In this document: positions 3,241-55,605 of the stretch, piece by piece
Layout of the letters: each line of letters opens with the position of its first letter
Numbering within the stretch: position 1 is the first letter of the stretch
Source: Sinomonas sp. ASV486
GTDB taxonomy: Bacteria > Actinomycetota > Actinomycetes > Actinomycetales > Micrococcaceae
Assembly (NCBI RefSeq): GCF_030908215.1
Contig: NZ_JAVFJK010000009.1
Coordinates: 1-55,605 of the forward strand
Reading direction: 5' to 3'
DNA: 55,605 nt
Notes under the pieces: model-generated
Databases searched by the model: none
What the model saw: the letters and a program-made list of their open reading frames with translations, nothing else
What the model was told of the DNA's origin: nothing
Position numbers and translations under genes: made by a program

Positions 3241-4133
3241 AGGTCACAACCCTCCGCCTGCCCTCCGGGGCAACCGCTGCCGCCCGCCAGGACGGGGACG
3301 CATTCGTCGAAGTGACCGGGTACGCGGACCTGGGTGCGCTCCTGGCCGCGCCCGGCTGGAAGGACATCGCGGCGGCGGCCGACGGCGCGCGGCACCCCGT
3401 GCAGGGCGCCGACCTCGCCGCCGTGGTCCCCGCCCCGTCCAAGGTGGTGTGCGTGGGCCTGAACTACGCCTCGCACATCAAGGAGATGGGCCGGGGCCTT
3501 CCCGCGCACCCGACACTGTTCGCGAAGTTCGCCGAAACCCTCACCGGCCCCTACGACGACATCGAGCTGCCCGCCGCGGACCCCGCGATCGACTGGGAGG
3601 CCGAGCTCGTCGTTGTGATCGGCAAGCGGGCCCGCCGCGTGCCCGAGGCCGAAGCGGCCGGGTACATCGCCGGGTACACCGCGGCGAACGACATCTCGAT
3701 GCGCACGTACCAGTTCCGCACCAAGGAGTGGCTCCAGGGCAAGATGTGGGAGGCCTCCACCCCGGTCGGGCCCGTCATGGTCACCCCGGAGGAGCTCGGC
3801 GCGGACGCGGCGATCACGACCGAGGTCGACGGGGCCAGGATGCAGACCGGGTCCATCGGGGACCTCGTGTTCACGCCGGAATACCTCGTCTCCTACATCT
3901 CCGAGATGATCACCCTCAACCCGGGGGACCTCATCCTGACCGGCACCACCGGCGGTGTGGGCCGCGCCCGCACCCCCGAGGTGTACCTCACCGACGGGCA
4001 GACGGTCACCGTGGCGATCGAGGGCATCGGGCAGCTCCGCAACGTCGCCCGCGCCCAGGCCGCGGGTCCGGCCGTGCCCGGGGTGCTGCCAGCCGGCGTC
4101 GATCTCGCGGCGGCCTCCTCCGGAAACGCCTGA
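3237..4133 (+). CDS. fumarylpyruvate hydrolase (FAH family)
   Basis: A 298-aa fumarylacetoacetate-hydrolase-fold protein. The core begins near residue 70 (VCVGLNYASHIKEMG). The metal-binding acidic motif is in DWEAELVVVIG, followed by GYTAANDISMRTYQ and the C-terminal GDLILTGTTGGVG. The short N-terminal region before the core is typical of the FahD/NagK group. Together with its neighbours this supports hydrolysis of fumarylpyruvate to fumarate and pyruvate, the last step of the gentisate pathway. The GTG start overlaps the preceding stop by four bases (GTGA), so translational coupling is likely. Confidence 0.9.
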   Translation: MKVTTLRLPSGATAAARQDGDAFVEVTGYADLGALLAAPGWKDIAAAADGARHPVQGADLAAVVPAPSKVVCVGLNYASHIKEMGRGLPAHPTLFAKFAETLTGPYDDIELPAADPAIDWEAELVVVIGKRARRVPEAEAAGYIAGYTAANDISMRTYQFRTKEWLQGKMWEASTPVGPVMVTPEELGADAAITTEVDGARMQTGSIGDLVFTPEYLVSYISEMITLNPGDLILTGTTGGVGRARTPEVYLTDGQTVTVAIEGIGQLRNVARAQAAGPAVPGVLPAGVDLAAASSGNA

Positions 4134-4134
4134 G

Positions 4135-4899
4135 ATGGTTGCCCGCCACGACCTCGTGACAGACGCCGAGACCCGCGCCGGGCTGCTCACGGTCCGGCGC
4201 GGCACGGCGTTCTTCGCCCGCAAGCTCAACGAGCTCGCCTACACCGACACGGACGAGCCGTCCCTGCTGCCGGGCTGGTCCCGCCGCCACGTCATCGCGC
4301 ACGTGGGCTACAACGCCCGCGCCGTCGCCCGTCTCGTCGAGTGGGCCGCCACCGGGATCGAGACCCCGATGTACCCCTCGCCCGAGGCGCGGAACGAGGA
4401 GATCGAGTTCGGAGCGACTCTGCCCCCCACAGCGCTGCTCAACCTGTACGACCACTCCGCGATCCACCTCTCGGTCGAGTGGCGCGACCTCCCCGACGCC
4501 CGGTGGGGCGAGGAGGTCCGCACCGCCCAGGGCCGGACAGTGCCCGTGTCCGAGACCGTGTGGATGCGCACCCGCGAGGTATGGCTGCACGCGGTCGACC
4601 TGGACAACGGCGCCCGCTTCGCGGACATCCCCACTGGGGTGCTCCGCCGCCTGATCGGGGACATCTGGGGAGCGTGGGAGAAGCGCGCCGAGACCGCCGG
4701 GCTCGCCGTGCGCGTCCTCGGCGCCGAGGACGGGCTCACCCTCGGCGACCCCGACGCGCCAGGGACCGTCGTGACCGGGCCGCTCGCCGCCGTCGCCCGC
4801 TGGGCCGCCGGCCGCGGCACCGAACCAGGCCAGCCGCTCACCGCGACGCGCGACGGCGCACTGCTCGCAGAGGTCCCCATGCCTCCTCGCTGGATCTGA
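4135..4899 (+). CDS. mycothiol-dependent maleylpyruvate isomerase
   Basis: A 254-aa DinB-like protein of the mycothiol-dependent maleylpyruvate isomerase family (Corynebacterium glutamicum type). The N-terminal helical bundle has the LLPGWSRRHVIAHV segment with its metal-ligand His. A second metal site is the ExxxH in REVWLHAVDL. The C-terminal SCP2-like part follows. It isomerises maleylpyruvate to fumarylpyruvate, the step between its two upstream neighbours, and needs mycothiol, a thiol found only in Actinobacteria. The ATG is one base after the previous stop. Confidence 0.9.
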   Translation: MVARHDLVTDAETRAGLLTVRRGTAFFARKLNELAYTDTDEPSLLPGWSRRHVIAHVGYNARAVARLVEWAATGIETPMYPSPEARNEEIEFGATLPPTALLNLYDHSAIHLSVEWRDLPDARWGEEVRTAQGRTVPVSETVWMRTREVWLHAVDLDNGARFADIPTGVLRRLIGDIWGAWEKRAETAGLAVRVLGAEDGLTLGDPDAPGTVVTGPLAAVARWAAGRGTEPGQPLTATRDGALLAEVPMPPRWI

Positions 4900-45449: not shown

Positions 45450-45602
45450 CGGAGGAGAGAGGACGTGGTTGGTGGTCCCCGGAGCCGGGGAGATGAACGA
45501 CGAACTGCCGCGACCCGCGGCTAGGCTTGGGAGTGGATACCCGAAGCGCCGCTGCCCTGCTAAAGGGGCAGCAGCAGCGGTGCTGGACCCAGGAGGTGCG
45601 TG

Positions 45603-45911
45603 GTGCACGCGATACTGAGGGTGAACACATTCGATCCGGCGAAACTGGGCGCGGCCCAGGATGACCTGCGCGAATTCAACAGGATCCACGCGGCCCAAGC
45701 GGGCTTCATCGGGAGCATCACCGTCGATCTCGGCGGCGGCCGGGAATTCGTCATGAACGTTTGGCAAAGCGCCGAGGACGCCGACGCGGGCGTGTCCGTG
45801 CTCGGGCCCCACGTGGGGCGCCTGCTGAGCCCGCTCATGGCCGCGGCATCGGAGTTCATTGGAGCCGGTCCGGTTGTCGGCACGGACTTCGCCCCAACAC
45901 GGCAGTCCTGA
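45603..45911 (+). CDS. small hypothetical protein (ABM-like fold)
   Basis: A 102-aa protein with a ferredoxin-like alternation of strands and helices (AILRVNTFDPAKL, AAQAGFIGSITVDLGGG, EFVMNVWQSAEDA). This is reminiscent of antibiotic-biosynthesis-monooxygenase-type dimeric domains but without diagnostic residues. AGGAGG (45591-45596) lies six bases before GTG 45603 and three before GTG 45600; the second gives normal spacing. It stands between two gene remnants and has no operon partner. Confidence 0.65.
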   Translation: MHAILRVNTFDPAKLGAAQDDLREFNRIHAAQAGFIGSITVDLGGGREFVMNVWQSAEDADAGVSVLGPHVGRLLSPLMAAASEFIGAGPVVGTDFAPTRQS

Positions 45912-46320: not shown

Positions 46321-46395
46321 CTCTGGGCTTGATGGAGACTCCTGACCTTGGAAACGAGGATGGAGTCATGGCAACGAGTCGGGTCTGGGAAACCG

Positions 46396-46645
46396 ATGGC
46401 ACGTCGGTATTCGCCCGGAGGAGAAGGCTGCCGCGGTGCGGATGGTGCGGACACATGCGCGCGGAGCTGGGGGACCGAGCACGGGACGGTGCAGCGGGTC
46501 GCGGCCCAGCTGCGCCACGGCCCCGAATCGGTGCTGGTCTGGCAGGCCGGACATCGACGACCGGCGCGGGGCCGCGTGTGAGCACCGCCGACGCCCGGCG
46601 GATCAGGGAGCTGGAACAGGAGAACCGCGAAGCAGAAGGTGGCGC
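46396..46645 (+). mobile_element. decayed IS3-family transposase OrfA remnant
   Basis: Pieces of an IS3-type OrfA are scattered over all three frames: MARRYSP, then EEKAAAVRMVRTHA in a second frame, ELGTEHGTVQRVAAQL back in the first, and VSTADARRIRELEQENRE in the third. The order matches an intact OrfA, so the copy has several frameshifts and cannot function. OrfB and clear terminal repeats are absent. It abuts the hydantoinase B fragment, suggesting the element inserted in or near that gene before decay. Confidence 0.75.
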
Positions 46646-46792
46646 GCCAAGGGTTGTGGAGCAGCCAAAGGGGCCGCAAGCAGCATGGGTGTCCGGGGTG
46701 CGTCGGCGCTGACCCGGCATTGCTCTGCTAGCGTCTAGCTGTAGGGTTGGCAGGCTTTCCTTTGGTGGTACGTCTTCGGAGAGGAGCGGCTG

Positions 46793-47851
46793 TTGGCACA
46801 GGAATCGGGGCGCCCAGCATCTGTTCCGCGACGGCGGAAGCCCAGCATCAACGATGTGGCCAGGATCGCCGGTGTCTCCTATCAGACCGTCTCCCGAGTC
46901 ATCAACAACGCCCCGGACGTGAGTGCTGCGACCCGGGACCGGGTGCTCGGCGTGATCAAGGAGATCGGCTACCGCCGCAATCGGACGGCCACGGCGCTCG
47001 TCACTAGTCGTTCGACGGTCATCGGGATCCTGACAGACGGCTCTCCGCGCTTCGGGCCGGTAGGGACGCTCATGGCACTTGAGAGCCTGGCGCGGCAGAA
47101 CGGCTACGCATCGACAGTTGTGACCGTCGACGAGCCGTACCAGGAGAGCGTGCCGAAGGCACTGGACGCCTTGGACGACGTGGGCGTCGACGGCATCATC
47201 GTCATCGCGCCACGCCTTGCCATGGCTGCCGCCGTATGGAATGCCGACGTCCGGGTGCCGGTCGAGATGATCGCAGCCGGGGCCTCCTCCACGCCGAACG
47301 TCTTCACCTACTCCGAGAACCAGGAACTGGGCGCCCGCATGGCGACCCAGCACCTCATCGACCTCGGCCACAAGGACATCGCCCATATTGCAGGTTCGAT
47401 GGAATGGTTCGACGGCCGTGTCCGTAAGCGCGGCTGGGAGGCATCGATGCGGGATGCCGGCTTGGAACCCGGGTTGTGCGTCGAGGGCGACTGGAGCCCG
47501 AAGTTCGCCTATGAGACTGGGCTGCGCCTGGTTTCCGAGGGAAGGGTGCCACAGGCGATCTTCGCTGTGAGTGACCACACCGCGCTCGGCCTGATCCGGG
47601 CGTTCGCTGAGAACGGCGTCCGGGTTCCCGAGGATGTGAGCATTGTGGGCTTCGACGACGTAGAGGGCTCAGACTACTTTCTTCCGCCGCTGACAACTGT
47701 CCGCCAGGACTTCCCGGCGCTCGCCCAGGCCAGCATCGACGCGCTCCTGGCGGCTGTCGAGGGGCGCGAGGTCGACAGGACCCCGAGCGTCCCAACTCTT
47801 GTCGTGAGGGCGAGCACCATCCCAGCGCGTCTTCGCCAGACCAGCCCTTGA
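46793..47851 (+). CDS. LacI-family transcriptional regulator of the second sugar operon
   Basis: A 352-aa LacI/GalR regulator: basic N-terminal arm (RRRKPS), helix-turn-helix INDVARIAGVSYQTVSRVINN with the LacI-like recognition residues YQTVSR, and hinge to residue 75. The sugar-binding core contains TYSENQELGARMATQHLIDLGH and VGFDDVEGSDYFLPPLTTV. It starts with TTG at 46793 behind GAGAGGAG. The two GTGAACGTTCAC palindromes 130-170 bases downstream of its stop are its probable targets, controlling the operon that follows. Confidence 0.92.
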   Translation: MAQESGRPASVPRRRKPSINDVARIAGVSYQTVSRVINNAPDVSAATRDRVLGVIKEIGYRRNRTATALVTSRSTVIGILTDGSPRFGPVGTLMALESLARQNGYASTVVTVDEPYQESVPKALDALDDVGVDGIIVIAPRLAMAAAVWNADVRVPVEMIAAGASSTPNVFTYSENQELGARMATQHLIDLGHKDIAHIAGSMEWFDGRVRKRGWEASMRDAGLEPGLCVEGDWSPKFAYETGLRLVSEGRVPQAIFAVSDHTALGLIRAFAENGVRVPEDVSIVGFDDVEGSDYFLPPLTTVRQDFPALAQASIDALLAAVEGREVDRTPSVPTLVVRASTIPARLRQTSP

Positions 47852-47964
47852 GCCGAATGCACCGAAACCAGGACGAGGCGCTTTTGCTCCCTGGGTAAGC
47901 GGGGGAGCGTGCGTCTAGGCCCCTGCTTTCGATGGCTCCGATCATCACGAGTCAAAAGTGACCC

Positions 47965-47970
47965 TTGACA
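47965..47970 (+). promoter_or_regulatory. -35 element of the second sugar operon
   Basis: Consensus TTGACA nine bases before the first operator. The -10 is not obvious: CACGAT (47989-47994) gives an 18-base spacer but is a weak match and overlaps the end of the first operator. Upstream, 47852-47964 shows no gene. Confidence 0.5.
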
Positions 47971-47978
47971 CACCACCC

Positions 47979-47992
47979 CGTGAACGTTCACG
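47979..47992. promoter_or_regulatory. LacI-type operator, first copy
   Basis: Perfect 14-bp palindrome CGTGAACGTTCACG between the -35 and the likely transcription start. Its half site GTGA resembles that of LacI, whose YQ recognition residues are shared by the adjacent regulator. Confidence 0.85.
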
Positions 47993-48000
47993 ATAGATGG

Positions 48001-48018
48001 ACCGTGAACGTTCACGGT
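48001..48018. promoter_or_regulatory. LacI-type operator, second copy
   Basis: Perfect 18-bp palindrome ACCGTGAACGTTCACGGT, 24 bp centre to centre from the first copy, at the start of the predicted transcript and about 28 bases before GTG 48046. Confidence 0.88.
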
Positions 48019-48045
48019 AGGTCTCAAGGAAAAGGAGGAGCCACG

Positions 48046-48537
48046 GTGGAAGCCGACAACTCGGTCCAGTCCCTCGGGCTCCCATCCGGGGTCCGGGTCG
48101 GCGAAGTCGACGCCGGGCAGTGGGCCAACGCAGCGCAGCTGATGCTCGCGGCCCACGGCTCGGACAACGACATCGCCAGAGGTGTGGATGCGTTCGTCCC
48201 CCGCAATTCCTCGGCTGTCGTGGGTGTCCTCCAAGACGGAGCCCTGTGGGCGAGCCTGGTCCTGACAGCGGACGGGTCGGGCTCTCTCGCATCGGTGAAG
48301 ACCGTGGATCCGGGGGATCTCGAATCTCCCGGTGACTTGGCCAGCGTCTCCTCGGAGGCGGTCGCATGGGTCCACGCCCACCACGGTCCCTGCAGTCTCG
48401 GGCTCTTCTTCGGCAAGCCACATGCCGAGGCGTTCCTGAACGCCTCTGACAAGGCTGCGGCGATCCGTGCAGCCTCGACCGCCGGCGGGCTCATCCTCTC
48501 GCCGGTCCCTCCCGCTCTGGCGCTTGCACTCGCCTGA
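48046..48537 (+). CDS. hypothetical protein heading the second sugar operon (163 aa)
   Basis: I do not recognise this family. The protein is soluble and acidic, with no signal peptide. It has strand-like segments (SSAVVGVLQDGALWASLVLTA, GSLASVKTVDP) and a helical part (VSSEAVAWVHAHHGPCSLGLFFG) before an Ala-rich C-terminus, suggesting a compact alpha/beta fold. AAAGGAGGAG precedes GTG 48046; the longer frame from 47965 would start inside the operators and is rejected. Being the first gene behind the LacI operators and before the binding protein, it is probably co-induced with sugar uptake. Confidence 0.75.
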   Translation: MEADNSVQSLGLPSGVRVGEVDAGQWANAAQLMLAAHGSDNDIARGVDAFVPRNSSAVVGVLQDGALWASLVLTADGSGSLASVKTVDPGDLESPGDLASVSSEAVAWVHAHHGPCSLGLFFGKPHAEAFLNASDKAAAIRAASTAGGLILSPVPPALALALA

Positions 48538-48651
48538 GCGTCCCAGAACCGAACTCCTACCACCGGATCCAGACCGCTCAGGGGGATGACCCCCAAAGCG
48601 CGTCGCGGTCCAGCACAACCCTTCCCCTCCCGACAGGACTGGAGATCACCC

Positions 48652-49806
48652 ATGATCCGCAGAACAGCGTCCCTCGCGGCGGCCGCCGCAATCACCCTCG
48701 CGGCTGCCGGGTGCAGCTCATCAACGAGCGCCGCCGGAGGAACGGACTCCGGCGTCTCCCAGAAGGCCGAGACCGCCCTCAGGCAGGTCACCGGGCAGGT
48801 GCTCAGCAAGGGCCCGAACGGCGAGACACCCTCGCCCGCCTCGGCCACGACCCTGACATCCGACGAGATCGCGAAGGTCAAGGCCATGGGCGCCACGGCC
48901 GCGATCGTCATGCACTACGGCGGCAATGACTGGGCGACAGCCCAGACCGCCGGCCTCAAGAGCGAGTTCGAGAAGCTCGGCATCAAGGTCATCGCCACGA
49001 CGGACGCCGACTTCAAGCCGGACAAGCAGGTCTCCGATCTCGAGACCGTCATGACCCAGAAGCCGAACATCATCGTTTCGATCCCCACCGACCCCGTTGC
49101 CACCGCGTCGGCCTACCGCAAGGCCGCGCAGGCCGGAGCCAAGCTGGTCTTCATGGACAACGTCCCGCAGGGCTTCACTGCGGGCAAGGACTACGTCTCC
49201 GATGTCTCCGCGGACAACTACGGCAACGGCGTCGTCTCCGCCCACGAGATGGCCAAGGCCCTCGGCGGCAAGGGAAAGATCGGGGTCATCTTCCACCAGG
49301 CCGACTTCTTCGTGACCCAGCAGCGGCACCAGGGCTTCAAGGACACCATCGCGAAGGACTACCCGGACATCCAGATCGTCGAGGAGAAGGGCATCGCCGG
49401 CCCTGACTTCGCCGGCGACGCCCAGGCCGGGGCGAACGCGATGCTGAGCAAGCACGCGGATCTCGCGGGCATCTGGGCCGTGTGGGACGTCCCGGCAGAG
49501 GGCGTCATGGCGGCGGCGCGCGCTGCGGGGCGCCAGGACCTCAAGATCGCGACCGAGGACCTTGGCAAGAACGTGGCCATCGCCCTCGCGAAGAACGACC
49601 TCGTAGTCGGCCTCGGCGCCCAGGTTCCGTTCGACCAGGGCGTGACCGAGGCACAGATCGCTGCCGGAGCCCTGCTCGGCAAGCAGGAGCCGGCCTACGT
49701 GGCGCTGAGCGCACTGCCAGTGGACCACTCGAACGTCCTGGACGCGTGGAAGCAGGTCTACCACGCAGACGCCCCCGCGGACCTCCAGAGCTCCTACAAG
49801 AAGTAG
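48652..49806 (+). CDS. CUT2 sugar ABC transporter substrate-binding lipoprotein
   Basis: A 384-aa RbsB-type binding protein with a lipoprotein signal peptide (lipobox AAGC, C21) and a Ser/Gly linker. The core includes AAIVMHYGGNDWATAQTAGLKSEF, SDLETVMTQKPNIIVSIPTDP and VFMDNVPQGFTAGKDYVS. It is longer than RbsB (about 300 aa) because of an extra N-terminal segment (residues 30-75). GGAG lies eight bases before ATG 48652. It probably binds a sugar or anhydrosugar fed to the dehydrogenase/isomerase genes downstream. Confidence 0.9.
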   Translation: MIRRTASLAAAAAITLAAAGCSSSTSAAGGTDSGVSQKAETALRQVTGQVLSKGPNGETPSPASATTLTSDEIAKVKAMGATAAIVMHYGGNDWATAQTAGLKSEFEKLGIKVIATTDADFKPDKQVSDLETVMTQKPNIIVSIPTDPVATASAYRKAAQAGAKLVFMDNVPQGFTAGKDYVSDVSADNYGNGVVSAHEMAKALGGKGKIGVIFHQADFFVTQQRHQGFKDTIAKDYPDIQIVEEKGIAGPDFAGDAQAGANAMLSKHADLAGIWAVWDVPAEGVMAAARAAGRQDLKIATEDLGKNVAIALAKNDLVVGLGAQVPFDQGVTEAQIAAGALLGKQEPAYVALSALPVDHSNVLDAWKQVYHADAPADLQSSYKK

Positions 49807-49830
49807 CGGGCCAGAAGCACCAGAAGCAGT

Positions 49831-49856
49831 CGGGCGGGGGCTGATGCCCCCGCCCG
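49831..49856 (+). terminator. intercistronic stem-loop after the binding-protein gene
   Basis: Perfect 11-bp arms CGGGCGGGGGC / GCCCCCGCCCG with a TGAT loop, 24 bases after the binding-protein stop and 13 before the ATPase start. It is probably a partial terminator or mRNA 3'-end stabiliser, as at the other transporter loci here. Confidence 0.7.
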
Positions 49857-49869
49857 GGAGGGACAACCC

Positions 49870-51375
49870 ATGAACACGCCAGACAATGCCGTCGAGATGC
49901 GGTCCATCTCCAAGGGCTTCAACGGGGTTCCGGTCCTGAAGGAGGTCGACTTCGAAGTCCGCAGAGGCGAGGTCCATGCGCTTGCAGGGGGCAACGGCGC
50001 CGGCAAGTCCACCCTCATGAAGATCCTGCAGGGCGTCTACCAGGCAGATGCCGGCGAGATCCTCATCGACGGGAGGCCGACAGCCATCAATTCCATCCAG
50101 GGGGCGAAGGCCGCCGGGATCGGAATGGTCTTCCAGGAATTCAGCCTCGTGCCGAGCCTGACGGTCGCGCAGAACATCTTCCTCGCCTCCGAGCCGCTGG
50201 CCGGCGGCCTCATCAATGACCGCGAGGCCGTCCGCCGAGCCAAGCAGAGCTTCGAGGAGATGGAGGTCCGCGTCGATCCCAAGGCCGAGGTCTCCCGCCT
50301 CGGAACGGCGTACTGGCAGCTCACGGAGATCGCCAAGGCGCTGTCTCAGAACGCGAAGGTGCTCATCATGGACGAGCCGACTGCGAGCCTGGCCAGACAC
50401 GAGACCGAGGCGCTCTTCGAGCTCATCGATCGGCTCAAGGCCCGCGGCATCTCGATCATCTACATCTCCCACCGCATGGACGAGGTGTACCGGATCGCGG
50501 ACCGCATCACGATCCTGCGCGACGGCCGGCGGCTGCTCACGGAGCCGCTGTCCAGCGTGACGCCCGAGCAGATCGTCGAGGGCATCGTTGGCAAGAAGAT
50601 CGAGGGGCAGCTCGCCTACCGCGAGCGTGAGCATGCGACGCACGACGGCGTCCCGCTCCTCGAGGTCCGCGGGCTCACCTCCGGACCCAAGGTCCGGGAC
50701 GTCTCGTTCGCGCTGCGGCCCGGGGAGATCCTCGGACTCGCAGGCCTCATGGGCAGCGGGCGCACCGAACTGGCCCGCACGCTGTTCGGTATCGACAAGG
50801 CCACGAGCGGCGAGATCCTCATCAGGGGCAAGAAGGTCACGATCTCCTCGCCCAAGCAGGCGATCGCGGCAGGACTCGCCCTGATCCCGGAAGACCGCCG
50901 CGCCCAGGGCCTCGTCCTGGACCACTCCGTGCGCGACAACCTCCTGCTCCCCCTCCTCGGGAACATCAGCCGCGGCCCGCTCCTGGACATCGGTGAGGGC
51001 AAGAAGCTCTCGTCGTCGCTCATCGAGAAGCTCGCGGTGAAGGTCGCCCACCCGAACCGCCCCGTCAGGCTCCTCTCCGGCGGAAACCAGCAGAAGGTGG
51101 TCATCGCCAAGTGGTTGGGCACCAACCCTGAGGTGCTCATCCTCGACGAGCCGACGGCCGGCGTCGACATCGGCACGAAGAGCGAGATCCTCGACATGAT
51201 CCGGGACCTGGCGAGCACCGGCAAAGCGGTGATCGTCATCTCCTCCGAATACCCCGAACTCCTTGCGGTGAGCGACCGAGTCCTCGTCCTCAAGGAAGGC
51301 TCCATCATCCAAGACCTGCCTCGCGGCGAGATAGCCGACGAGGAATCACTCCAACTCGCAGTCCAGGGAGTCTGA
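49870..51375 (+). CDS. CUT2 sugar ABC transporter ATP-binding protein (two domains)
   Basis: A 501-aa tandem ATPase of the RbsA/MglA type. Domain 1: Walker A GGNGAGKST, Walker B LIMDEPTASLA, switch His in YISHRMDE; its signature, however, reads LGTAYWQLTEIAKAL instead of the usual LSxGxQQ. Domain 2: degenerate Walker A GLMGSGRTE (normal for the family), canonical signature LSGGNQQKVVIAKWL, Walker [12 protein letters not shown]. It energises import with the permease that starts one base after its stop. Confidence 0.94.
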   Translation: MNTPDNAVEMRSISKGFNGVPVLKEVDFEVRRGEVHALAGGNGAGKSTLMKILQGVYQADAGEILIDGRPTAINSIQGAKAAGIGMVFQEFSLVPSLTVAQNIFLASEPLAGGLINDREAVRRAKQSFEEMEVRVDPKAEVSRLGTAYWQLTEIAKALSQNAKVLIMDEPTASLARHETEALFELIDRLKARGISIIYISHRMDEVYRIADRITILRDGRRLLTEPLSSVTPEQIVEGIVGKKIEGQLAYREREHATHDGVPLLEVRGLTSGPKVRDVSFALRPGEILGLAGLMGSGRTELARTLFGIDKATSGEILIRGKKVTISSPKQAIAAGLALIPEDRRAQGLVLDHSVRDNLLLPLLGNISRGPLLDIGEGKKLSSSLIEKLAVKVAHPNRPVRLLSGGNQQKVVIAKWLGTNPEVLILDEPTAGVDIGTKSEILDMIRDLASTGKAVIVISSEYPELLAVSDRVLVLKEGSIIQDLPRGEIADEESLQLAVQGV

Positions 51376-51376
51376 C

Positions 51377-52363
51377 ATGAGCAAGACAGCCCCCGCAGCC
51401 CCCATCGAGACGGCGACATCGCCGAGCTTCGGCGAGACGCTGAGGAAGCTCGACTGGCGTCGCTACGTCATCTACATCGGCTTCGTCGTGGTGTTCGCGT
51501 TCTTCGCGATCCTCCTGCGCGACCAGGGCTTCCTGTCCGCGGTGAACCTGCTGAACATCTTCCGGCAGACCGCGACCATCACAGTGATCGCCGTCGGGAT
51601 GACCTACGTCATCTCGTGCGCCGAGATCGACCTCAGCGTCGGGTCCACCGCCGGCCTATCGAGCGTCGCCACCGCGATGGCGATCTCCCATTGGGGCCTC
51701 CTGCCGGGTATCCTGGCCGGCCTGGCCATGGGCGTCATCGTCGGGGCCATCAACGGCGGCCTCGTGAGCCTCCTGGGCATCCCCTCGTTCCTTGTGACCC
51801 TGGGCATGATGGGGATCGCGGTCGGGGCCGCGCAGTGGATCACGGCGTCGGCTCCTCAGCCGATCCTCGACGACACCTTCAACACGATCTTCGGCTCCGG
51901 CAACATCGGCCCTGTCCCGGGCCTGGTCCTGTGGTCCGCGCTCTTCGTGGCGGTGGGCGCCGTCGTCCTATCCCGCACGAAGTTCGGCCGGCAGGTCCTC
52001 GCGACGGGCGGCAACCGCACGGCAGCGGACTTCACCGGCATCAGCACCAAGCGCATCAAGTTCCAGGTCCTGCTCATCTCCGGCATCGTGGCGAGCATCG
52101 CCGGGATGCTTTACGCAGGTCGCCTCCAGTCCGGACGCTTCCAGTGGGGCACGGGGGACGAGCTCTCGGCGATCGCCGCCGTGATCCTCGGAGGGACCAG
52201 CCTGTTCGGCGGCTCTGGCACGGTGATCGGAACGCTGTTCGGCTCGCTGCTCATCGGCCTGATCAACAACGGCCTCATCCTCGCCGGGCTCGACAGCAGC
52301 CAGCAGCAGGTCGTGCGCGGGGCGATCATCATCCTGGCCGTCGCCCTGGCCCGGAAGAAGTAG
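51377..52363 (+). CDS. CUT2 sugar ABC transporter permease (RbsC-like)
   Basis: A 328-aa permease with about ten membrane segments and the family region CAEIDLSVGSTAGLSSVATAMA, then VSLLGIPSFLVTLGMMG, ATGGNRTAADFTGI and AVILGGTSLFGGSGTVIGT. It begins one base after the ATPase stop and is followed after two bases by a dehydrogenase gene, so the transporter and catabolic genes form one operon. Confidence 0.94.
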   Translation: MSKTAPAAPIETATSPSFGETLRKLDWRRYVIYIGFVVVFAFFAILLRDQGFLSAVNLLNIFRQTATITVIAVGMTYVISCAEIDLSVGSTAGLSSVATAMAISHWGLLPGILAGLAMGVIVGAINGGLVSLLGIPSFLVTLGMMGIAVGAAQWITASAPQPILDDTFNTIFGSGNIGPVPGLVLWSALFVAVGAVVLSRTKFGRQVLATGGNRTAADFTGISTKRIKFQVLLISGIVASIAGMLYAGRLQSGRFQWGTGDELSAIAAVILGGTSLFGGSGTVIGTLFGSLLIGLINNGLILAGLDSSQQQVVRGAIIILAVALARKK

Positions 52364-52365
52364 CC

Positions 52366-53487
52366 ATGGGCGCCGCACTCCGCTCCGGGATCATCGGCAC
52401 GGGATTCATCGGAGAGGTCCACGCGCACGCGGTGCGGGCAGCCGGCGGCACGGTGAGCGCCGTCGCCGGCCGGACGACGGCGAGCGCCGAGCGCGCTGCT
52501 CCCGCACTCGGGGCGATGCACGCAGCAGCATCGCCGGAGGCCCTCATCGAGCGCGACGATATCGACGTCGTCCACATCTGCACCCCCAACGCGACGCACG
52601 CCCACTACACGAAGCTCGCTATCGTCGCGGGCAAGGCGGTCGTCTGCGAGAAGCCACTCGCGACCTCGGTTGAGGATGCCGCGGAGCTTGCAGACCTGGC
52701 TAGGCGCCATCGAAGCGTCGCCGCGGTGCCGTTCGTCTACCGGTTCTACCCTGCCGTCCGCGAAGCGCGAGACCTCGCGCGCCGCGGGGACGCCGGCCGC
52801 CTCTGGCTCCTGCACGGTTCCTACCTCCAGGACTGGCTCGCCAGCCCCCAGGCAACGAACTGGCGCGTCGACCCGGCCAGGGGAGGGGCGTCCCGGGCCT
52901 TCGCCGACATCGGCGTCCACTGGTGCGACCTCATGGAATTCGTCACCGGGCAGCGGATCACCCGGCTTGTCGCATCGACGTCGCGGGCGTTCCCCGAGCG
53001 GCCCGGCGAGGGAGGCCCCAGCCCAGTCACCACCGAGGACGGCGCGAGCGTGCTGTTCGAAACCGACCAAGGCGCCGCAGGGTCCGTCGTGGTCAGCCAG
53101 GTCACCCCTGGCCGGAAGAACCGGCTCTGGTTCTCCTTCGATGGGACCGAGGCCTCCCTGAGCTTCGACCAGGAGCAGCCGGACACGCTTTGGCTGGGAC
53201 GGACAGCGGCCGCCACCCGGGTGGCCGTGGGCCCGGACACCCTCACAACCCCGGCCGGGAGGCGGTATGCCAGGCTCCCCGCCGGCCACCCGCAGGGCTA
53301 TCAGGACAGCTTCAACGCCTTCGTCGCCGACGTCTACGACGCTGTGCGCGGCGGGGCCCCCGACGGGCTGCCCACCTTCGCCGACGGGCTACGCGCGGCG
53401 CAGCTCACCCAGGCGCTCATCGACTCAGCGCAGGGCGGCGGATGGGTCAGCGTTCCCGCCTACGACAAGGTTTCCACCATCATCTGA
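52366..53487 (+). CDS. Gfo/Idh/MocA-family sugar oxidoreductase
   Basis: A 373-aa NAD(P)-dependent dehydrogenase: Rossmann GIIGTGFIGEVHAHAV, VHICTPNATHAHY, CEKPLATS, VPFVYRFYP and the catalytic segment RAFADIGVHWCDLMEF, with H and D at the expected places. The GSYLQDW and NWRVDP segments are shared with the last gene of the window. It is one of two Gfo/Idh/MocA enzymes flanking the isomerase gene, a layout seen in levoglucosan (lgd-type) pathways, where one oxidises the sugar at C3 and the other reduces the 3-keto product back. Confidence 0.9.
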   Translation: MGAALRSGIIGTGFIGEVHAHAVRAAGGTVSAVAGRTTASAERAAPALGAMHAAASPEALIERDDIDVVHICTPNATHAHYTKLAIVAGKAVVCEKPLATSVEDAAELADLARRHRSVAAVPFVYRFYPAVREARDLARRGDAGRLWLLHGSYLQDWLASPQATNWRVDPARGGASRAFADIGVHWCDLMEFVTGQRITRLVASTSRAFPERPGEGGPSPVTTEDGASVLFETDQGAAGSVVVSQVTPGRKNRLWFSFDGTEASLSFDQEQPDTLWLGRTAAATRVAVGPDTLTTPAGRRYARLPAGHPQGYQDSFNAFVADVYDAVRGGAPDGLPTFADGLRAAQLTQALIDSAQGGGWVSVPAYDKVSTII

Positions 53488-53499
53488 AAGGGCCAGCCA

Positions 53500-54321
53500 A
53501 TGAAACTCGGATACTGCACCATCACCTGGGGCGGGGTCGTCGGGCACCCGGTCGGGGTGACGAGCATCAAGGACCTCTTCTACATGACCCACGGGTCCAT
53601 GGACCGGGCCGTGAAGGACATCGCCGCGGTCGGCTACGAGGGCGTGGAGATGTTCGACGGCAACCTCGCCGAGTACGCCGACCGGCCCGAGGAGCTCCGC
53701 GGCCTCCTCCAGGAGGCGGGCGTCTCGCTCGTGAGCGTCTACACCGGAGCGAACTTCATCTACGCCGACATCCTCCCCGACGAGCTGGACCGCATCCAGC
53801 GGTCCGCCGAACTGGCGGCCATGTTCGGAGCCGAACGCCTCGTCGTCGGCGGCGGCGCGCGGCGCGCCGCGGGAACCAGGGACGAGGACTACCAGCGCCT
53901 CGGCGAAGCCCTCGACCGGGTCGCCGACATCGCCGAAGGATCCGGCCTCTCCGCCAGCTACCACCCGCACCTCACCACCATCGTCGAAGGCCCGGACGAG
54001 CTCGAGCGCCTCATGCCGCTCACCAGGATCGGCTTCTGCCCGGACACCGCGCACATGGCCGCCGGCGGTGCCGACCCCGCGGCCATGATCCGCAAATACC
54101 CCGAGCGCCTCCGCCATGTGCACCTGAAAGACCTCCGCAGGGACCCGTTCACGTTCCTGCCCCTCGGTGAAGGCGAGCTCGACCTCCCGGACATCGTCCA
54201 GGCCATCAAGGAGAGCGGCTACGACAGCTGGCTCATGGTCGAGCTCGACGAGTACGACGGAGACCCCCGCGCCGCCGCCGAGATCAGCAAGAAGTACTTG
54301 GACTCCCTCCTCCATTCCTGA
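53500..54321 (+). CDS. sugar phosphate isomerase/epimerase-type TIM-barrel protein
   Basis: A 273-aa xylose-isomerase-like TIM barrel: MKLGYCTITWGGVVG start, YEGVEMFDGNLAEYA with a metal-ligand Glu, SYHPHLTTIVEGP, GFCPDTAHMAAGG, HVHLKDLRRDP and MVELDEYDGDP supply the usual Glu-Asp-His-Glu metal set. In levoglucosan and related 3-keto-sugar pathways such proteins do the elimination or hydration step on the oxidised sugar. It sits between two Gfo/Idh/MocA genes on one transcript. Confidence 0.88.
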   Translation: MKLGYCTITWGGVVGHPVGVTSIKDLFYMTHGSMDRAVKDIAAVGYEGVEMFDGNLAEYADRPEELRGLLQEAGVSLVSVYTGANFIYADILPDELDRIQRSAELAAMFGAERLVVGGGARRAAGTRDEDYQRLGEALDRVADIAEGSGLSASYHPHLTTIVEGPDELERLMPLTRIGFCPDTAHMAAGGADPAAMIRKYPERLRHVHLKDLRRDPFTFLPLGEGELDLPDIVQAIKESGYDSWLMVELDEYDGDPRAAAEISKKYLDSLLHS

Positions 54322-54345
54322 CCCCCCATCGAATAGGAACACGTC

Positions 54346-55527
54346 ATGAAGAATCTCAACGTCGGCCTCATCGGAGGCGGCTTCATGGGCAAGGCCCATT
54401 CGCTCGCATACTCGGCGATGCCCATGTTCTTCTGGCCGGCCCCGGCCATGCCTGTCCGCAAGACGATCGCCGAGGCGAACGAAGGCCTCGCTGCCGAGGC
54501 CGCCCGGCGCTTCGGCTTCGAGCAGTCGACCTCGAACTGGCGCCAGATCATCGAGGACCCAGAGATCGACGTCGTCGATATCGCGACGCCGAACCACCTC
54601 CATGCCGAGATCGCGATCGCCGCAGCCCAGGCGGGCAAGCACATCATCTGCGAGAAGCCTCTCGCCCGCACCGGCGAGGAGTCCAAGGCGATGTACGACG
54701 CGGTCAAGGACGCCGGCATCGTGCACATGGTGGCCTTCAACTACCGGCGCACTCCCGCCGTCGCCCTTGCCAAGAAGTACATCGAGGAAGGCGCGATCGG
54801 GCGCATCCTCAACTTCCGCGGCACCTACCTCCAGGACTGGAGCGCCGACCCCAACTCCCCGCTGTCGTGGCGCTTCCAGAAGTCCGTCGCCGGCTCCGGG
54901 GCGCTCGGCGACATCGCGACGCACGTCATCGACATGGCCCGCTACCTCGTGGGCGAGTTCGCCTCCGTCAACTCGATCCTCTCGACCTGGATCCCTGACC
55001 GACCTCTGCAGTCCGGCGGCGCAGACGCGCTCGGGAACGTTCTGGGAGGCGACGGGCCGCGCGGCGATGTGGACGTCGACGACGAGGTCATGACTATGGT
55101 CCGCTTCGCCAACGGGGCCGTCGGCTCCATCGAGGCCACCCGCAACGGCTGGGGGCGGAACAACTTCATCACGTTCGAAATCCACGGCACCGAAGGCAGC
55201 ATCGTCTTCAACTACGAACGCCGGGATGAGCTCCAGGTCTGCTTCGCGAACGACGGCGCCGACCGCCGCGGCTTCCGGACCGTCTACACCGGGCCCGCCC
55301 ACCCCTATGGAGAGGGCCTGTGGCCGATTCCGGCGCTGGGCATCGGCTATGGCGAAACCAAGATCATCGAGGCGCACGACTTCTTCAAGGCCATCGCCGA
55401 GGGCACCAGCGTGAGCCCGAACTTCGGGGATGGCTACCAGACCGCACTCATCGATGACGCGATCATCGCATCCGCCGAGAAGGAAGCCTGGGTCGACGTC
55501 CCCCTAGTGGCCGAGCTCGCGGACTAG
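54346..55527 (+). CDS. Gfo/Idh/MocA oxidoreductase, levoglucosan dehydrogenase-like
   Basis: A 393-aa NAD-dependent dehydrogenase: GLIGGGFMGKAHSLAY with a hydrophobic MPMFFWPAPAMP insert, DIATPNHLHAEIA, CEKPLART, VAFNYRRTPAVA, YLQDWSADPNSPLSWRFQ, and catalytic D and H in GALGDIATHVIDMARY. Length and these motifs closely resemble the Pseudarthrobacter levoglucosan dehydrogenase as I remember it; no alignment was possible here. It would oxidise the C3 hydroxyl of 1,6-anhydroglucose or a similar sugar. It is the last gene in the window, and the operon may continue beyond it. Confidence 0.9.
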   Translation: MKNLNVGLIGGGFMGKAHSLAYSAMPMFFWPAPAMPVRKTIAEANEGLAAEAARRFGFEQSTSNWRQIIEDPEIDVVDIATPNHLHAEIAIAAAQAGKHIICEKPLARTGEESKAMYDAVKDAGIVHMVAFNYRRTPAVALAKKYIEEGAIGRILNFRGTYLQDWSADPNSPLSWRFQKSVAGSGALGDIATHVIDMARYLVGEFASVNSILSTWIPDRPLQSGGADALGNVLGGDGPRGDVDVDDEVMTMVRFANGAVGSIEATRNGWGRNNFITFEIHGTEGSIVFNYERRDELQVCFANDGADRRGFRTVYTGPAHPYGEGLWPIPALGIGYGETKIIEAHDFFKAIAEGTSVSPNFGDGYQTALIDDAIIASAEKEAWVDVPLVAELAD

Positions 55528-55542
55528 GCCGAACACAGGGGC

Positions 55543-55581
55543 GGGGGGGGGGGGGGGGGCCCCCCCCCCCCCCCCCCCCCC
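55543..55581. other. G17/C22 homopolymer block at the window end
   Basis: Seventeen G followed directly by twenty-two C, shortly after the last stop codon. A natural GC-rich terminator may lie here, but runs this long are more likely caused by failed sequencing or assembly through a strong hairpin at a contig edge. Bases after it should be treated with caution. Confidence 0.7.
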
Positions 55582-55605
55582 AGCCCACCCACGAAAACAC
55601 CCCCC

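Follow-up and report, generated by a model that had tools for sequence, protein, structure and literature searches.

The DNA analysed here is a stretch of 55,605 nucleotides of Sinomonas sp. ASV486, namely the first 55,605 positions of contig NZ_JAVFJK010000009.1 in a genome of 4.28 Mb; this whole stretch is called the window, and downstream coordinates continue its numbering. At its end lies what is very probably a complete operon for the catabolism of levoglucosan, a major product of burning biomass (wood), with its own importer and regulator. Homology, gene order, uniqueness of the operators and linkage were observed; the reactions are inferred from published enzymes. The original prediction, made from the DNA letters, had read the region as an lgd-type pathway of oxidation, elimination, hydration and reduction, and this is supported by enzyme homology, by linkage and by the hydratase homologue that was found. 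Its gene list was confirmed: in the list of open reading frames (ORFs) the eight genes at 46793–55527 are all on the + strand and in the proposed order, with gaps of 1 to 114 bases from the 163-aa gene on, and two further genes follow past the window end:

46793–47851, + strand: LacI-family regulator, likely a local repressor (LacI helix-turn-helix and Peripla_BP_3 domains)
47980–47991, strandless: operator 1, perfect palindrome GTGAACGTTCAC (one of two exact copies in the genome)
48004–48015, strandless: operator 2, perfect palindrome GTGAACGTTCAC, 24 bp from operator 1 (exact search)
48046–48537, + strand: U163, a protein of 163 amino acids (aa), first gene of the operon (no Pfam or NCBIfam family)
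48652–49806, + strand: lipoprotein sugar-binding protein of an ATP-binding cassette (ABC) importer (Peripla_BP_4, E 8e-40; lipobox)
49870–51375, + strand: sugar ABC transporter ATPase with two ATPase domains (ABC_tran, E 9.5e-54, two stretches)
51377–52363, + strand: sugar ABC transporter permease (BPD_transp_2, E 4.1e-42)
52366–53487, + strand: LgdC, predicted NADH-dependent 3-keto-glucose reductase (glucose 3-dehydrogenase; Gfo/Idh/MocA domains; E95, H185)
53500–54321, + strand: LgdB1, predicted 3-keto-levoglucosan beta-eliminase (AP_endonuc_2, PF01261, E 1.8e-38; 273 aa)
54346–55527, + strand: LgdA, levoglucosan dehydrogenase by homology (NF052479, 752.6 bits, cut-off 650)
55719–56048, directly after lgdA, past the window end: gene of a protein with an antibiotic biosynthesis monooxygenase (ABM) domain (PF03992 match)
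56072–57076, past the window end: hydratase-like TIM barrel of 334 aa (PF01261; homology to PDB 8ro4)

By homology, the last gene of the window encodes a levoglucosan dehydrogenase (LGDH), as had been proposed. LgdA passed the cut-off of the NCBIfam equivalog model NF052479 with the bit score listed above. Its best solved relative was PDB 6a3f (with 6a3g, 6a3i and 6a3j; 794 bits, residues 1–388), the crystallised levoglucosan dehydrogenase of Pseudarthrobacter. The alignment to this characterised enzyme, recommended as a check because low identity would have spoken against the assignment, gave 343 identical residues among 388 aligned by hand count (about 88%). E103 and H193 are described as catalytic in LgdA (Kaur et al. 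2023, PMC10066097); both are present together with K104, and all three are kept in 35 of 36 aligned rows, the remaining row being a gap. Besides the protein itself, the rows comprised orthologues, second copies and fragments, at more than 60% identity. The nearest named relatives are the proteins of Sinomonas albida (96%) and S. atrocyanea (94%). In loci L018, L027 and L032 lgdA-like genes occur as close pairs, in tandem in Cohnella (both 73%) and on opposite strands in two Lachnospiraceae (58–68%).

The neighbouring enzymes were compared in fetched loci, which carry L-numbers; 31 named loci with LGDH were compared, L002 and L003 being outside the analysis. L004 (S. albida) and L005 belong to other Sinomonas, and L006, L007, L010 and L030 are Arthrobacter-type loci with the 163-aa gene. 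LgdB1, encoded 24 bases before lgdA, is a PF01261 protein with a length close to that of the published LgdB1 cluster (about 275 aa). A match of 42–95% was detected in 30 of the 31 loci, with L019 as the exception; it lies on the strand opposite to the query lgdA in L027 and L032 and reaches 80–95% in L004–L008, L010 and L030. LgdC carries E95 and H185 at the same numbers as the published LgdC, for which these positions are named (PMC10066097). Nine named loci are of this type; six of them (L004, L005, L008–L010, L030) have a match of 62–87% to it in the corresponding position, and L006, L007 and L011 have none there. Against the LGDH model the protein scored only 157.7 bits, far under 650, which rules out a second LGDH. 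The two residues and the linkage in other loci support the returning reductase expected at this position.

The same six loci contain the whole block of binding protein, ATPase, permease, lgdC, lgdB1 and lgdA, and L006, L007 and L011 the block of importer, lgdB1 and lgdA without lgdC. In the operon studied here, the genes of U163 and the binding protein are 114 bases apart, followed by gaps of 63, 1, 2, 12 and 24 bases. The binding protein starts with MIRRTASL and a lipobox at 48652 (the ORF list has an earlier ATG at 48586). The nearest NCBIfam models of the ATPase are of AraG/XylG type, below cut-off. Pfam families suit seven of the operon proteins; U163 is the sole exception, without a match.

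A second isomerase had been expected beyond position 55605, and on reading further it was found at 56072, about 545 bases after lgdA. The operon thus encodes a homologue of 2-hydroxy-3-keto-glucal hydratase: the TIM barrel matched PDB 8ro4, deposited under this function (E 3.4e-36, residues 16–315), and PDB 2zds over its full length. The barrel is also similar to the LgdB2-type proteins encoded in four lgd loci of Bacillaceae (L016, L017, L020, L023; 26–28%, E 1e-20 to 1e-24), which share with it the stretch DPSH..WQG(I/L)DPV, a motif absent from LgdB1. One LgdB2-type protein was tested against 8ro4 and matched it, too (E 1.5e-6).

The barrel lies beyond a scaffold gap of 10 N, the exact start of which is the window end and which is flanked by low-complexity long runs of G and C (55540–55605 onward). 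The scaffold join is right, because the single-contig genome G238 of the same species shows LacI, U163, importer, lgdC, lgdB1, lgdA, ABM gene and barrel in one run without N. At the position of the gap, G238 has a short GC-rich spacer with an inverted repeat; hence the G/C filler looks like an assembly artefact.

For the distribution of the barrel 295 Micrococcaceae genomes were searched, LGDH being counted above the model cut-off and the barrel at E<=1e-100. Overlaps between the genome lists of LGDH, ABM, U163 and barrel were determined by visual comparison, taking identical handles to denote identical genomes. The barrel was present in 179 of the 295 genomes, namely in all 22 with lgdA versus 157 of the 273 others; the chance of such an overlap in a random draw is about 1e-5, if relatedness is ignored. 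In at least 11 of the 22 it lies within about 4 kb of lgdA. At E<=1e-10 a match was found in 32 of 32 genomes searched, those in Firmicutes and Alphaproteobacteria being 29–47% identical and partly short. The Sinomonas genome itself holds two further copies at 96–97% and one at 69%; one of these extra copies comes after an LgdC paralogue, and another is preceded by two Gfo/Idh/MocA genes. On another contig (64000–82000) a copy of the barrel at 96% and the LgdC paralogue (51%) are clustered with a lactonase, another TIM barrel and two GMC oxidoreductases, possibly as a glycoside 3-oxidation pathway.

On this basis the following route is proposed. Levoglucosan would be taken up by the lipoprotein-dependent ABC importer and oxidised at C3 by LgdA with NAD+ to 3-keto-levoglucosan. 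LgdB1 would open the 1,6-anhydro bridge by beta-elimination, giving 2-hydroxy-3-keto-D-glucal, to which the 334-aa TIM-barrel hydratase would add water. The resulting 3-keto-D-glucose would be reduced by LgdC to D-glucose using the NADH of the LgdA step, so that the sum of the steps would be an ATP-independent, redox-neutral hydrolysis. From the two neighbouring operators LacI would keep the operon repressed until it binds an inducer, which is probably levoglucosan or one of the pathway intermediates. The inducer, the transport specificity and the roles suggested below for the ABM protein and U163 are likewise inferred.

Some points weigh against this reading. The hydratase gene lies outside the fetched lgdA locus, elsewhere in the genome, in L004 (S. 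albida), L006, L007, L011 and L030, and its link to the pathway is therefore in part an indirect one. As the 179 of 295 genomes indicate, proteins of the hydratase-like family are widespread, and presence alone is therefore weak evidence. Finally, the names LgdB1 and LgdC are putative and rest on sequence features and linkage.

For the hydration step it was considered that the ABM-domain protein adds the water, with the TIM barrel serving other 3-keto-sugar pathways. The ABM gene directly follows lgdA in all 17 Micrococcaceae genomes with a match, it also occurs in L004, L006, L007, L011 and L030 without the barrel at the locus, and the two near-identical barrel copies (96–97%) stand in other clusters of the same genome. 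However, the barrel has a solved 2-hydroxy-3-keto-glucal hydratase as homologue, is present in 22 of 22 lgdA genomes and shares with Bacillus LgdB2-type proteins the motif absent from LgdB1, whereas 5 of the 22 lgdA genomes are without an ABM match at E<=1e-10. Hydration by the ABM protein is thus unlikely.

It seems improbable, too, that the main substrate is another 1,6-anhydrosugar or a glycoside (e.g. galactosan, mannosan, cellobiosan) and levoglucosan a side substrate. Transporter specificity is unreadable from the sequence, NCBIfam transporter models matching below cut-off only, and the comparison of the substrate pocket covers E103 and H193. Nevertheless, identity to the crystallised levoglucosan dehydrogenase is about 88%, the equivalog cut-off is passed and the catalytic residues are kept. 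An inositol-type operon with IolG/IolE-like Gfo/Idh/MocA and TIM-barrel proteins is most improbable and was rejected, since the matches of the 53500–54321 barrel to the IolE model (E 1.7e-36) and of LgdA to the IolG model (E 1.2e-40) stay far under the cut-offs (126.3 vs 290 and 139.4 vs 355 bits), while LgdA is above that for levoglucosan dehydrogenase.

The two perfect operators noted in the original prediction are present: when all 4.28 Mb of the genome were searched for exact copies of the 12-base palindrome GTGAACGTTCAC, only these two were found, each upstream of the 163-aa gene, and the reversed control pattern gave zero matches. The 10-base core TGAACGTTCA is kept as a pair 24 bp apart in the Sinomonas loci L004 and L005. 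Close variants of the core are paired 22 bp apart in L007, L010 and L030, and L006 has a single operator-type site. The AACGTT site was not found in the stretch examined of L008, L009 and L011. The LacI protein has orthologues of 93–94% in S. albida and S. atrocyanea, and of 76–80% on the opposite strand in L006, L007, L010 and L030. The natural reading of these patterns is that it would act as a local repressor on this operon alone.

The ABM-domain protein has 109 residues and scored 42.6 bits against PF03992 (gathering cut-off 23.1); an ABM fold is seen in the predicted structure of the orthologue from S. atrocyanea. At E<=1e-10 it was matched in 17 of the 295 Micrococcaceae genomes, all of them among the 22 with lgdA. 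A search of L035–L037, three contigs without LGDH, gave no match. The protein was dismissed as a universal lgd component, as 11 of the 31 named LGDH loci are without it (L012, L015, L018–L021, L027, L029, L032–L034). Also rejected as pathway-specific were four Firmicutes copies, placed among background ABMs in a tree, and two Cryobacterium copies, which stand apart from the other levoglucosan-linked copies. In this tree (75 columns, weak deep support) the fork with ten actinobacterial copies (84/78) includes 11 background rows and the fork with five alphaproteobacterial copies (88/68) eight. From the sequences, either one or two recruitments may have taken place in Actinobacteria and Alphaproteobacteria. 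A small protein encoded upstream (45600–45911) gave E 0.15 against ABM, which is sub-threshold; it is 97% conserved in G238, and no match was found in the other lgd loci searched.

LsrG (PDB 3qmq, 2gff), a phospho-DPD isomerase of ABM fold, was compared with the ABM-domain protein, and an LsrG-like isomerase is put forward as a hypothesis only. Tentatively, and with more doubt than confidence, the ABM protein may be a dedicated levoglucosan enzyme of Actinobacteria and Alphaproteobacteria acting on 2-hydroxy-3-keto-glucal or 3-keto-glucose, as LsrG-like isomerase or mutarotase, with U163 as second pathway-specific factor. If so, its target would be a reactive intermediate, a dicarbonyl or enol, and the protein would add a fifth step to the catalysis or serve as a safety valve.

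U163 gave no Pfam or NCBIfam match up to E 1. Its GTG start lies after AAGGAGGAG; a longer ORF of 190 aa begins at 47965, upstream of both operators. The protein was matched in six of the 31 named loci (L004–L007, L010, L030) and in 16 of the 295 Micrococcaceae genomes, all 16 among the 22 with LGDH over cut-off, of which six were without a match. One of the 16 matches (G181) is weak and partial (33%, E 1.2e-5). In the 16 genomes U163 and lgdA are on the same strand, 4.9–6.3 kb from start to start; the firm finding on U163 is that it accompanies this operon in Micrococcaceae. Its C-terminal half is strongly conserved (alignment of six of the seven sequences, L030 left out). In the Paenarthrobacter locus L030 the gene (3719–4200) reads in two frames and looks frameshifted, by sequencing error or decay. 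The five AlphaFold2 models of U163 ranged from pLDDT 51 to 81; the best (mean 81.3) resembles SCP2-like domains weakly, a match too weak for use. Compared with G238, U163 (48160–48600 region) is 81% identical, versus 98–99.5% for the other operon genes, and the differences include silent-looking sites, which suggests a local patch of recombination.

Outside the operon, overlapping ORFs at 46330–46740, upstream of LacI, have the appearance of a broken insertion sequence transposase fragment, an impression from the translations. Across the genome 31 Gfo/Idh/MocA domain matches were counted, seven of them on the contig of the window.

The lgd pathway itself is already published (Kuritani et al. 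2020, PMC7676230; Kaur et al. 2023, PMC10066097). LgdA, LgdB1, LgdC, a LacI regulator and a sugar ABC transporter are common to the operon and to the pathway described for Bacillus smithii S-2701M, and the chemistry of oxidation, elimination, hydration and reduction is the same (PMC7676230). In contrast to that system, one permease gene instead of two is present and the ABM and 163-aa genes are additional; the hydratase is 26–28% identical to the LgdB2-type proteins of the four Bacillaceae loci, a comparison in which the B. smithii protein was not included. The operon resembles those of Paenarthrobacter LG01 and LG02, Actinobacteria described with lgdA, lgdB1, lgdC and the ABC cassette and without LgdB2 (PMC10066097). 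According to the same paper, the hydration step was left open in these Actinobacteria, and 126 of 265 neighbourhoods contained LgdB1 and neither LgdB2 nor LgdB3. Judged by size class and distribution, the LgdB3 cluster of that paper probably corresponds to the TIM barrel downstream of lgdA. In an O-glycoside operon of Agrobacterium with AtOGE and AtHYD, the chemistry after elimination is the same as proposed here, and preliminary evidence was reported for the hydration of 2-hydroxy-3-keto-glucal by AtHYD (PMC10628242), which we take to be PDB 8ro4. That operon differs in its first oxidoreductase, its eliminase and its substrate, an aryl glucoside (PMC10628242).

As far as the searchable literature goes, the ABM and 163-aa genes are undescribed. 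'Monooxygenase' and 'ABM' do not occur in the main text of PMC10066097, and no paper joining levoglucosan and 'antibiotic biosynthesis monooxygenase' was found, subscription papers and supplements being outside the search. New are the two small proteins linked to lgdA and the reading of a shared hydratase.

The barrel is a candidate, by homology, for the hydration step left open in Paenarthrobacter. The data fit one hydratase family that serves several 3-keto-sugar routes and whose genes often lie apart from lgdA, which would explain the many published lgdA neighbourhoods without the barrel. Fungi use a kinase route for levoglucosan, to which the bacterial breakdown is an alternative that needs no ATP. 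A shared hydratase family would make the published gap in hydration testable with one protein, and the two lgdA-linked small proteins are candidates for missing functions of the pathway and for engineered use of levoglucosan.

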